The notes under the pieces: model-generated
Told to the model about the DNA's origin: nothing
What the model saw: the letters and a program-made list of their open reading frames with translations, nothing else
Databases searched by the model: none
DNA from: Micromonospora alfalfae
GTDB taxonomy: Bacteria > Actinomycetota > Actinomycetes > Mycobacteriales > Micromonosporaceae
Assembly (NCBI RefSeq): GCF_022230925.1
Contig: NZ_JAKKFH010000006.1
Coordinates: forward strand, 62,001 to 126,000
DNA: 64,000 nucleotides
Direction: 5' to 3'
Position numbers and translations under genes: made by a program
Shown here: in pieces, positions 39,969 to 44,268 of the stretch
Position numbering within the stretch: position 1 is the first letter of the stretch
How the letters are laid out: the number at the start of each line of letters is the position of its first letter

Positions 39969-42809
39969 TTAGGCGACTACCGAGACCATCCGGCCCTTGA
40001 CCACGATGACCTTGCGGGGCTCCTTGCCACCCAGGGTCGCCGCCACCGCGTCCAGTGCCGCCGCGCGGACGCTCTCCTCGGAGGCGTCGGCGGGGACCTC
40101 GACGCGGCCACGGACCTTGCCGTTCACCTGCACCGGGTACGTCACCGTGTCGGCCACCAGCAGCGCCGGGTCGGCGGTCGGGAAGTCCGCGTACGTCAGC
40201 GACGTGTCATGGCCCAGCTTGCGCCACAGCTCCTCGGCCATGTGCGGGGCGAACGGCGCCACCATCAGCACCAGCGGCTCGGCCACCTCACGCGGCGTGG
40301 CCGACAGTCGGGTCAGCCCGTTGGTCAGCTCGATCAACTTGGCGATAGCGGTATTGAACCGGATGCCGTCCATGTCGCCACGGACCCCGTCGATCACCTT
40401 GTGCAGCAGCCGGCGGGTCGCCTCGTCGGCCGGGTCCTCGGTGACTCGCAGGGCGCCCGTCTGCTCGTCGACGACGGCCCGCCACACCCGCTGCAGGAAC
40501 CGGTACGAGCCGACCACCGCCCGGGTCTCCCAGGGGCGGGAGACCTCCAGCGGGCCCATCGACATCTCGTACACCCGGAAGGTGTCCGCGCCGTAGGCGG
40601 CGCACATGTCGTCGGGGGTCACCACGTTCTTCAGCGACTTGCCCATCTTGCCGTACTCGCGGTTGACCGCCAGGTCACCCAGGTAGTAGGCGCCGTCGCG
40701 CTCGAAGACCTCCTCGGCCTGCACGTAGCTGCCGCGCGAGTCGGTGTACGCGTACGCCTGGATCATGCCCTGGTTGAACAGCTTGCGGAACGGCTCGAAC
40801 GACGACACGTGCCCCAGGTCGAACAGCACCTTGTGCCAGAACCGCGCGTACAGCAGGTGCAGCACGGCGTGCTCGGCGCCACCGACGTACAGGTCGGTGC
40901 CCCCGCAGTCACCGTCGGCGCGCGGGCCCATCCAGTACCGCTCGTTCTCCGCGTCGACGAACCGCTCGCTGTTCGTCGGGTCCAGGTAGCGCAGCTCGTA
41001 CCAGCAGGAGCCGGCCCACTGCGGCATCACGTTGGTTTCCCGGGTGTAGCGCTTCGGCCCGTCACCCAGGTCCAGTTCGACCTCGACCCAGTCGCGCCGC
41101 CGTGACAGCGGCGTCTCCGGGTTGCTGTTGGCGTCGTCGGCGTCGAACGTCTTCGGGGAGAAGTCGTCCACCTCCGGCAACTCGACCGGCAGCATCTCCT
41201 CCGGCAGGGCGATGGCCGCGCCGGTCTCGTCGTAGACGATCGGGAACGGTTCGCCCCAGTAACGCTGCCGGGAGAACAGCCAGTCGCGCAGCCGGTAGGT
41301 CACCGCGCCGGTGCCGTGCCCGTTCGCCTCCAGCCAGGCGATGATCGCCGCCTTTGCGTCGGCGACCCCCAGCCCGTTCAGGTCCAGGCCGCGCTCGGGC
41401 GCGGCGCTGTTGATCGCCGGGCCGTCCCCTGTGTACGCCTTGCCGTCGAAGCCCTCGGCCGGCTGCACGGTACGGACGATGGGCAGCTCGAAGACCTCGG
41501 CGAACGCCCAGTCCCGCTCGTCCTGCGCCGGCACCGCCATGATCGCGCCGGTGCCGTAGCCGGCCAGCACGTAGTCGGCGATGAAGATCGGGATCTGCCC
41601 ACCGGTGACCGGGTTGGTGGCGTACGCGCCGATGAAGACGCCGGTCTTCTCCTTCGTGTCGGACTGCCGCTCGACGTCGGTCTTGGCGGCTGCCGCCTTG
41701 CGGTACGCCTCGACCGCCTCCCGGGGGCTGGCGTGCCCGCCGGTCCAGGCGTCCCTCGTCCCGTCCGGCCAGCTGGCCGACGCCAGCGTGTCGACCAGCT
41801 CGTGCTCGGGCGCCAGCACCATGTAGGTGGCGCCGAAGACGGTGTCCGGGCGGGTCGTGAACACCCGCACCGGTGCCGCGCTGGTCGGGAAGTCCACGTG
41901 GGCGCCGGTGGAGCGGCCGATCCAGTTGCGCTGCATCAGCTTGATCGGCTCGGGCCAGTCCAGGCTGTCCAGGTCGTCCAGCAGCCGGTCACCGTACGCG
42001 GTGATCCGCATCATCCACTGCTTCAGGTTGCGCTTGAAGACCGGGAAGTTGCCCCGCTCGGAACGGCCGTCGGCGGTGACCTCCTCGTTGGCCAGCACGG
42101 TGCCCAGACCCGGGCACCAGTTCACCGGCGCCTGCGAGACGTACGCCAGGCGGTGGTCGTCGACGACCTGGCGGCGCTCGGCGACGCTCAGCTCGGCCCA
42201 GGCGCGGCCGTCCGGGGTGGGCCGGTTGCCGCCCTCGAACTCGGCGATCAGCTCAGCGATCGGACGGGCCCGGCCGGCGTCGCTGTCGTACCAGGAGTTG
42301 AAGATCTGCAGGAAGATCCACTGGGTCCAGCGGTAGAAGTCGGTGTCGATGGTGGCCACCGAGCGGCGCTCGTCGTGCGCCAGCCCCAGCCGGCGCAGCT
42401 GCGCCTTGTACCGCTCGATGTTCGCGACGGTGGTGGTCCGGGGGTGGGTGCCGGTCTGCACCGCGTACTGCTCGGCGGGCAGGCCGAACGCGTCGAAGCC
42501 CATCGCGTGCAGCACGTTGCGACCGGCCATCCGTTGGTAGCGGGCGTAGCAGTCGGTGCCGATGTAGCCCAGCGGGTGGCCGACGTGCAGGCCCGCTCCG
42601 GACGGGTACGGGAACATGTCCAGCACGTACAGCTTCTCCGCGCCGGCGCGTGGGTGGGTCGGGTCGGCCAGCGGGCCGGTCGGGTTCGGTGCGTGGAAGG
42701 TGCCCTCGCGCGCCCAGATGTCCTGCCAACGAATCTCGATCTCGTCGGCCAGGGCCGCTGTGTACCGGAACGGGGGAATGTCGCCCGCCGGTGCGGCTGC
42801 CTCACTCAT
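39969..42809 (-). CDS. leuS: Leucyl-tRNA synthetase LeuS
   Basis: 946 residues from [19 protein letters not shown] with GAGGAGA 5 nt upstream; the frame is open another 94 codons but that part is leader RNA. Class Ia synthetase charging tRNA-Leu. HIGH-like motif [18 protein letters not shown]1 editing domain ([20 protein letters not shown]), KMSKS as KMGKS in [12 protein letters not shown], and anticodon-binding C-terminus. It is preceded by a leucine leader peptide, a hairpin and a terminator, indicating attenuation by leucyl-tRNA supply. Confidence 0.98.
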
Positions 42810-42871
42810 CGTCTCTCCTCGCTTCGCTTCGCTTCGTCTCGGCACCACCGGGCCGGGCCGGCGGCGGGCAC

Positions 42872-42897
42872 AAAAAAGCCCCTCGCGCAGGAGGGGC
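42872..42897 (-). terminator. Intrinsic terminator in the leuS leader (attenuator)
   Basis: On the minus strand a GCCCCTC/GAGGGGC stem (42891-42897 and 42878-42884) with a 6-nt loop is followed directly by six T (42877-42872). It lies 62 nt before leuS and after the leader peptide, so it must be a conditional terminator. Confidence 0.85.
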
Positions 42898-42898
42898 C

Positions 42899-42934
42899 GC
42901 CGTGCTGTCGCTGGGTTCAGCGCATCAGCACGGC
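42899..42934 (-). promoter_or_regulatory. leuS leader hairpin next to the terminator
   Basis: GCCGTGCTG and CAGCACGGC pair perfectly (9 bp), with an inner CGCTG/CAGCG stem and a 4-nt loop. Its 5' arm overlaps the last codons and stop of the leader peptide, and its 3' arm abuts the terminator. A ribosome on the leader peptide would block it. Confidence 0.7.
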
Positions 42935-42963
42935 CCGGTAAGAAGCAGGAAGACTCCGGCCAT
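42925..42963 (-). CDS. leuS leader peptide
   Basis: A 12-residue open frame [12 protein letters not shown]. Codons 6-8 are CTG CTT CTT: three consecutive leucine codons, two of them the CTT codon that is rare in so GC-rich a genome. The ATG is 7 nt after a TACACT hexamer, so the peptide is probably translated from a leaderless end. The stop lies in the following hairpin. Classical attenuators have been predicted before leuS in some Streptomyces, supporting this reading. Confidence 0.8.
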
Positions 42964-42970
42964 GCCCCGC

Positions 42971-42976
42971 AGTGTA
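42971..42976 (-). promoter_or_regulatory. Putative -10 hexamer of the leuS transcript
   Basis: TACACT on the minus strand, 7 nt before the leader-peptide ATG. It gives a transcript that begins at the leader peptide. No convincing -35 is visible. Confidence 0.5.
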
Positions 42977-43170
42977 CCTCTTCCATGGTTCGCCCTGCCG
43001 GCCCCCGGGCGCTGTCGAAGCCGTTCCCCCGAGTCGGCGAATATCGGTGCGTAACCGACGGACTACCTGCGGGGGTCGGCGATAACGACAAACATGGTTA
43101 GCCTGAGAGACTAGTGAGATTCCTGCGGCAAACGAGGCTCGACGTCGCGAACCCAACGGCGGGTCCAGGT

Positions 43171-43184
43171 GCTCTCTAGAGAGC
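43171..43184. promoter_or_regulatory. 14-bp palindrome upstream of moxR
   Basis: GCTCTCTAGAGAGC is a perfect palindrome, 28 nt before the moxR start. A TAGCCT hexamer (43099-43104) upstream could be the -10, which would place the palindrome in the leader. It may be an operator; no binder is evident. Confidence 0.35.
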
Positions 43185-43212
43185 TGCCGTGACGGCGACG
43201 AGGAGGAGGCCC

Positions 43213-44268
43213 GTGACACAACAGACCTGGGACGAGGTGGGCGGCCTGTTGCCGCACGACGAGTTCCGCGCCGCCAGCGAGGCCATCGTGGCCAACATCG
43301 AGCAGGTCATCGAGGGTAAGACCGCCACCGTGCGGCTCGCCCTGGCCGTCCTGCTCGCCGAGGGTCACCTCCTGATCGAAGACGTCCCGGGTGTCGGCAA
43401 GACCAAGCTTGCCAAGGCCCTCGCGCGGTCCATCGACTGCACGGTCCGACGGATCCAGTTCACCCCCGACCTGCTGCCCAGCGACGTCACCGGGGTCAGC
43501 GTCTACAACCAGGAGACGCACGACTTCGAGTTCCGCCCCGGCGCCGTGTTCGCCAACCTGGTGGTCGGCGACGAGATCAACCGGGCCTCGCCGAAGACCC
43601 AGTCGGCGTTGCTGGAGTGCATGGAGGAGCGGCAGGTCACCGTCGACGGGGTGACGTACCAGCTCCAGACCCCGTTCATGGTGATCGCCACCCAGAACCC
43701 GATCGAGATGGAGGGGACCTACCCGCTGCCGGAGGCGCAGCGCGACCGGTTCACCGCCCGCATCGCGATGGGTTACCCGGACTCCAACGCCGAGCTGGCC
43801 ATGCTCGACGGGCACGGCGCCACCGACCCGCTGCACGAGCTGCGCGCGGTCTCCGACGCGGCCATCGTCCGGCAGTTGATCGCCACCGTCCGGCAGGTGC
43901 ACGTGGCGGACGCGGTCAAGCAGTACGCGATCGACCTGGTCACCGCCACCCGCGAGGCCCCCGACCTGCGGCTCGGCGCGTCCCCCCGGGCGACCCTGCA
44001 ACTGTTGCGCACCGCCCGGGCGGTCGCCGCCCTGGAGGGCCGCGACTATGTCCTCCCCGACGATCTGCAGGCCCTGGCGGTGCCGGTGCTGGCCCACCGG
44101 ATCATCCCGACCGCCGACGCGCAGCTCGCCCGGCGCACCACCGACGCGATCGTCTCCGAGCTGGTGCACCGCCTGCCGCTGCCACACGACAGGCAGCGCA
44201 ACCCGTACGACACCCGGCCACCCGCCACCGGCAACGGTCGCGCACCCTACGAGCCGCGGAGGCCGTGA
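43213..44268 (+). CDS. MoxR-family AAA+ ATPase
   Basis: 351 residues from the GTG VTQQTWDEVGG, which has a GAGGAGGAGG ribosome site. AAA+ core with Walker A IEDVPGVGKTKLAKALA (about residues 56-72), Walker B NLVVGDEINRASPKTQSALLECMEE, sensor ATQNPIEMEGTYPLPEAQRDRF and a lid domain. MoxR ATPases act as chaperones with VWA or DUF58 partners; the DUF58 gene follows immediately. The C-terminus has a short disordered extension. Confidence 0.95.
   Translation: MTQQTWDEVGGLLPHDEFRAASEAIVANIEQVIEGKTATVRLALAVLLAEGHLLIEDVPGVGKTKLAKALARSIDCTVRRIQFTPDLLPSDVTGVSVYNQETHDFEFRPGAVFANLVVGDEINRASPKTQSALLECMEERQVTVDGVTYQLQTPFMVIATQNPIEMEGTYPLPEAQRDRFTARIAMGYPDSNAELAMLDGHGATDPLHELRAVSDAAIVRQLIATVRQVHVADAVKQYAIDLVTATREAPDLRLGASPRATLQLLRTARAVAALEGRDYVLPDDLQALAVPVLAHRIIPTADAQLARRTTDAIVSELVHRLPLPHDRQRNPYDTRPPATGNGRAPYEPRRP

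Follow-up and report, generated by a model that had tools for sequence, protein, structure and literature searches.

The window, the whole stretch of 64,000 nucleotides analyzed here (Micromonospora alfalfae, contig NZ_JAKKFH010000006.1), carries on its minus strand the gene leuS, preceded by a short open reading frame, leuL, and by two hairpins, H1 and H2, the second of which runs into a tract of T. The product encoded downstream of the leader exceeds the cutoff of the NCBIfam profile leuS_bact (882.6 versus 548.4 bits). The features, in window coordinates, are as follows.

42976-42971, minus strand: -10-like box TACACT, read from the sequence
42925-42963, minus strand: leader open reading frame leuL, 12 codons plus stop, from the sequence and its in-frame conservation
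42940-42948, minus strand: control codons CTG CTT CTT, from the sequence and conservation
42899-42934, minus strand: hairpin H1, 9 bp, from folds; 5' arm 42934-42926, 3' arm 42907-42899
42877-42898, minus strand: terminator hairpin H2, from folds; adjoins H1 with a spacer of 0 nt
42872-42877, minus strand: U-tract of six T, from the sequence
42869-42870, minus strand: T/G step, nine and ten nt past the last stem G, from the offset count in relatives
42820-42815, minus strand: Shine-Dalgarno-like GAGGAG of leuS, from the sequence
39972-42809, minus strand: leuS coding sequence (leucyl-tRNA synthetase), ATG at 42809, from the NCBIfam profile

The sequence-only reading of this DNA had described TACACT, 7 nt, a 12-codon frame, a 9-bp hairpin over its stop, a stem, and six T, and all of these coordinates hold. 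The frame, ATG GCC GGA GTC TTC CTG CTT CTT ACC GGG CCG TGC TGA, starts at 42963. Based on the 7-nt spacing between box and ATG, the leuL transcript is probably leaderless in M. alfalfae. H1 begins 5 nt past the last CTT, its arms (GCCGTGCTG and CAGCACGGC) enclose a further small stem, and the stop codon of leuL lies inside it. By sequence and fold, an intrinsic terminator is predicted between leuL and leuS. The heptamer CTCCTTA, which many leaders carry at the place of window 42945-42939, is identical to the anti-Shine-Dalgarno tail of 16S rRNA; this may be a coincidence of the Leu codons.

One alternative account of this layout is that leuS is preceded by an ordinary terminator or by chance stable hairpins, the three-Leu frame being a coincidence. 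GC-rich DNA folds easily, and neighboring hairpins arise from shuffled sequences too. The fold from the ATG onward is more stable than its dinucleotide shuffles (z -4.07; 0 of 200 equally stable). CTT makes up 37 of the 1,681 Leu codons (2.2%) in 42 open reading frames of the window, which were picked by high GC3, a choice that itself depresses the figure. A DNA search of the genus found the leader in 25 of 25 genomes covered, including that of M. alfalfae, and every one keeps its box, its start, and its three Leu codons (any CTN); the last Leu codon is always CTT, and the run reads CTG CTT CTT in 24 genomes and CTG CTC CTT in one. The earlier judgment that two CTT codons are unlikely by chance is borne out by this conservation. 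The pattern that would have spoken against the attenuator, hairpins kept with the Leu codons lost, was not seen in the genus, as 25 of 25 genomes keep all three.

The leader extends beyond the genus. Sampling of the order and the family covered 119 genomes, 110 of which yielded a leuS upstream region; six of these 110 belong to the genus. A Leu-bearing short open reading frame stands just behind TAnnnT in 91 of the 110 regions, a few of which may be chance, and 19 regions lack a leader. CTY-CTT (42945-42940 in the window), the codon pair conserved among relatives, is followed by an [AG]CCG stem in 82 of the 110 regions (76 of 104 outside the genus); the remaining 9 of the 91 leaders have different Leu codons, for example CTG-CTT or CTT-CTC. 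In all 82 motif-bearing regions a start lies 5-8 nt after TAnnnT and in frame with CTY-CTT, and two of them also have an out-of-frame start behind TAnnnT. When 24 motif-selected genus members are added to these 82 regions, the distance from start to CTY takes ten values between 15 and 60 nt, every one a multiple of three (n = 106), although relatives share ancestry and leader counts are not independent. In 105 of the 106 leaders, 5 nt separate CTT from the stem. The stop codon of 14 leaders is shifted three codons toward the start, with the Leu codons and stem still in place, and these elements are thus set apart from the end of the peptide. Because the leader layout is conserved across relatives, we exclude chance. 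A coincidental frame is extremely improbable given that all 82 motif-bearing regions keep the frame, that 25 of 25 genus members keep three Leu codons, and that a homologous leader has been reported from S. lividans RNA-seq (accessible text of PMC8079986). The earlier proposal of a leucine attenuator before leuS is supported by the anatomy, by the conservation throughout the genus, and by the CTY-CTT pair in 82 of the 91 leaders, which had been collected whatever their Leu codons were.

Conservation also bears on the possibility that the RNA senses a ligand or tRNA directly, in the manner of a T-box, a LEU element, or a ppGpp-type switch, with no translation of the leader. Its position before an aminoacyl-tRNA synthetase gene would suit such a switch, since T-boxes are common before these genes in Firmicutes; the same source describes the LEU element of leuA as a conserved pseudoknot in which the Leu codon run pairs with the Shine-Dalgarno box (PMC1262725, accessible text). 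However, the frame and the Leu codons are kept while the H1 loop, highly variable in length and sequence between relatives, is not, and no Rfam family, T-box included, matches window positions 42400-43400 at E <= 1. We therefore consider direct sensing very improbable.

An attenuator of this kind has been described before. A 2005 study predicted classical attenuators upstream of the leuS genes of S. avermitilis and S. coelicolor (PMC1262725, accessible text). RNA-seq of S. lividans identified LeuL2, a leaderless leader of 12 residues (MRAVRLLLSEPR) with a hairpin and a U-stretch (PMC8079986, accessible text). The leader and hairpins found here are homologous to LeuL2 and stand directly before leuS; like the Streptomyces LeuL2/leuS attenuator, they combine a 12-residue LLL peptide with a hairpin and U-stretch, and a single DNA pattern recovers both, whereas the Micromonospora peptide and its genus differ. 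The leuS leader is thus a further member of an already described kind of attenuator. The sequence-only reading had called a leaderless start unusual for an attenuator; this view does not survive the S. lividans data, where LeuL2 and seven of eight leaders in Table 4 are called leaderless (PMC8079986, accessible text), and such a start is normal for leaders of this group. Among the titles and abstract openings covered, with most subscription papers outside this scope, no leuS attenuator is named in Micromonospora and no citramalate synthase attenuator in Actinobacteria, which leaves their absence from the literature unproven. Replacement of candidate codons in the S. coelicolor ilvB leader reportedly left regulation unaffected, so that leader codons alone are no proof of attenuation, and results on leuA are at odds with classical attenuation (PMC1262725, accessible text).

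The DNA pattern was found at no fewer than 119 loci in named genomes; of these, 80 are shown with titles, which mostly name Streptomyces and Micromonospora. LeuS is encoded at most 700 nt downstream in 114 of 119 pattern loci among the matches listed; for the other five, at most 346 nt of downstream DNA was fetched. The published LeuL2 peptide is the commonest, in 48 of 119 among the matches listed, and the 12-residue peptide of the window occurs in 8 of the 80 loci shown, all titled Micromonospora, again among the matches listed. At E <= 0.01, a covariance model built from 37 leaders has matches in 140 of 296 genomes of the class, a count that pools matches before leuS and before other genes. 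In the genome of M. alfalfae it recovers the leuS locus at E 7.4e-28, followed by matches at 0.24 and 8.6. One family (f8) is absent from the 140 matching genomes, with 20 of its genomes listed without a match, and none of its six genomes in the upstream survey has the leader.

At 26 of 27 further loci (L145-L171) LeuS is encoded downstream of the leader, the 27th being only 1,644 nt long. Fifteen encode an actinobacterial LeuS 66-71% identical to that of the window, and 11 a divergent LeuS (38-44%). By these comparisons, the leader is kept regardless of the type of LeuS in the genome. A leuL attenuator before a divergent LeuS (approximately 38-47% identical) was observed at L150-L157, L159, L160, and L169, and at L138. 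In another genome (G030:C53), positions 1057-1205 of locus L134 hold a leuL-like leader (MRLGGRLLLTGPC) followed by the apparent last codons of a leuS, and the LeuS match of that genome is of the divergent type and located elsewhere; from its sequence, the L134 leader looks like the scar of a lost leuS.

Both hairpins are conserved as structures. In a 37-row alignment, 481 of 481 cells of 13 pairs hold standard pairs, with changes on both sides at two of seven H1 pairs and two of six H2 pairs; 0 of 500 shuffles were as good. At the fifth H1 pair, 98 unique leaders have U-A in 78, C-G in 15, U-G in four, and G-C in one. H1 ends 0-3 nt before H2 in 105 of 106 folds, and one leader was parsed as a single hairpin. 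A shuffle control weakens this abutment as strong proof: 660 of 980 shuffled H1 regions still form a hairpin at 0-3 nt from H2, compared with 98 of 98 real leaders parsed, and the abutment is partly what folding yields anyway. The correct start of H1 as well as the 0-3 nt spacing is found in 74 of 980 shuffles, compared with 94 of 99 real leaders. The H1 region is more stable in real than in shuffled sequences (-26.5 versus -15.5 kcal/mol). The U-tract is poor in some relatives (L045, L048, L052, L053, and L056), and another (L043) shows no proper terminator.

We consider it likely that the leuS leader is a ribosome-mediated leucine attenuator, and we propose that H1, kept on stalling, would block the abutting H2. 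A 70S ribosome would initiate at the 5'-terminal AUG and translate leuL. When charged tRNA-Leu is ample, the ribosome would pass CTG-CTT-CTT to the stop codon and cover the 5' arm of H1, H2 would form, and transcription would end. When charged tRNA-Leu is scarce, the ribosome would stall at the Leu codons, H1 would remain formed, H2 could not close, and the polymerase would continue into leuS. Judged by this layout, the leader probably lets the cell make more LeuS enzyme when leucine is short. The proposed exclusion is steric, as the bases of both stems could not occupy the RNA exit channel together and the hairpins share no bases; we infer that H1 would block H2 because the stems abut, not because bases are shared. 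Exclusion by abutment at 0-3 nt, taken as a claim of its own, is plausible if not quite probable.

The modeled ribosome has its leading edge 12 nt past the first base of the A site. H1 pairing, averaged over 98 unique leaders, is 0.97 without a ribosome, 0.82 with the ribosome on CTY, 0.54 on CTT, and 0.04 at the stop, whereas equilibrium partition functions give H2 pairing of 0.92-0.97 in all four states. The ribosome thus sets H1 but not H2, and H1 must act other than by taking bases of H2. H2 is unaffected at equilibrium, and while its 3' arm has yet to emerge, its 5' arm gains no pairing from stalling (0.17 and 0.26 in the stalled states versus 0.37 at the stop); any role of H1 as antiterminator would therefore have to be kinetic or steric. 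Also against the model, a ribosome stalled at the last CTT would occlude approximately five H1 bases.

Attenuators of the E. coli trp, leu, and his operons combine a leader peptide containing control codons with an intrinsic terminator and a 2:3 pairing that competes for terminator bases. The leuS leader resembles them in its peptide and terminator, but no competing pairing of the 2:3 type was found in its folds. Likewise, partition functions with the ribosome at four positions in 98 unique leaders gave no pairing-based antiterminator, and the earlier remark that no convincing antiterminator could be drawn stands as far as base pairing goes, in all four ribosome states. Three specific candidates were rejected. 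An extension of H1 into the 5' arm of H2 would place C opposite C in most sequences read. Pairing of CUCCUU, from the Leu codons, with GAGGGG in the 3' arm of the terminator needs G-U pairs and was rejected by reasoning, because the ribosome that must permit it would mask the Leu codons. A second open reading frame starting from an RTG past the U-tract soon meets a stop codon in several relatives inspected by eye.

Alternatively, H1 could be a pause hairpin only, synchronizing polymerase and ribosome, with antitermination left to another pairing or a protein-assisted step. Hairpin-stabilized pauses have a spacing of 10-11 nt. Among 98 unique leaders, 73 have a YG step at 10 nt past H1 and 17 have one at 11 nt, but YG is nearly as frequent at 12 nt (66) and 14 nt (70), which makes the offset weak evidence. 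Pausing alone would not require H1 to touch the terminator, and as no ribosome state lowers H2, the competitor would have to be something unseen, for example a pseudoknot. We regard a pure pause hairpin as unlikely, though a serious contender. A conserved TG lies farther downstream: of 93 unique leaders scored, which share ancestry, 89 have T and G nine and ten nt past the last stem G, and the letters between differ. This TG, at a fixed distance past the U-tract, is usually followed by CC (window 42870-42866 and relatives). A conserved TG resembles the consensus pause, and the step is possibly a pause at the release point.

For the ribosome-mediated attenuator, H1 itself may be the best candidate antiterminator, by analogy with its counterpart in Corynebacterium glutamicum ilvBNC. 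In this nearest studied case, a proposed antiterminator (36-79) touches the terminator (77-113) in a model with mutants (PMC11857589, accessible text). Expression rose seven- to eight-fold with terminator-weakening mutations in the shared region, and mutations on the antiterminator side only had moderate-to-weak effects (PMC11857589, accessible text). The ilvBNC leader begins one nt from the 5' end of its mRNA and has the control codons CUU and GUA (PMC11857589, accessible text). As in this attenuator and the ilvB-II motif, control codons in the leuS leader stand just before an antiterminator-like hairpin adjoining the terminator (PMC11857589, PMC10272879, accessible text). By contrast, the C. 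glutamicum system regulates ilvBNC, its hairpins overlap by a shared trinucleotide whereas H1 and H2 share none, and its proposed model includes a third hairpin, an anti-antiterminator (PMC11857589, accessible text).

A similar layout was observed before other genes. Twenty weaker matches of the covariance model were fetched and their frames read by eye: seven stand before an ilvB-like gene (L176 and L181 less surely), seven before a citramalate-synthase-like gene, and three before LeuS, and three (L184, L187, and L189) look like chance. Leader regulation of ilvB is known. In the genome of M. alfalfae (G000:C26), ilvB (L199; 1126 versus a cutoff of 881 bits for NCBIfam PRK07789) has the leader MSSYRSLRVLT with GTA-CTT, two touching hairpins, and five T. 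Citramalate synthase (L200; 606 versus 450 bits for TIGR00977) has the leader VTSTALIIAT with ATT-ATT, for which alternative starts are possible. The control codons of this genome fit the gene controlled, with Leu for leuS, Val-Leu for ilvB, and Ile for citramalate synthase. Citramalate synthase in other families was seen to have Ile/Val leaders too. When TAnnnT was strictly required, a search of six genomes upstream of ilvB and citramalate synthase gave no leader; leaders were found by reading three regions of each gene. The boxes before the two M. alfalfae leaders are CAGGCT and CAGAGT, respectively, and a leaderless start is therefore less sure for them. All 26 ilvB and citramalate synthase loci inspected have hairpins 0-3 nt apart, a figure to which the shuffle caveat applies and for which the parser looked for two hairpins.

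We tentatively propose, as a speculative generalization that we hold to be less likely than not, that Actinobacteria share one attenuator chassis. It would comprise a short open reading frame at or near the mRNA 5' end, control codons matched to the gene, a hairpin that follows these codons after 5-8 nt and adjoins the terminator, a YG step at the release point, and steric antitermination without shared bases. The codons in question are CTY-CTT for leuS, GTA-CTT for ilvB, and ATT-ATT for citramalate synthase. If true, this would mean antitermination without competing base pairs. The present results extend the leuS attenuator of Streptomyces to Micromonosporaceae-type genomes and beyond, and relatives with differing H1 loops but fixed spacings make antitermination in leaderless attenuators directly testable.
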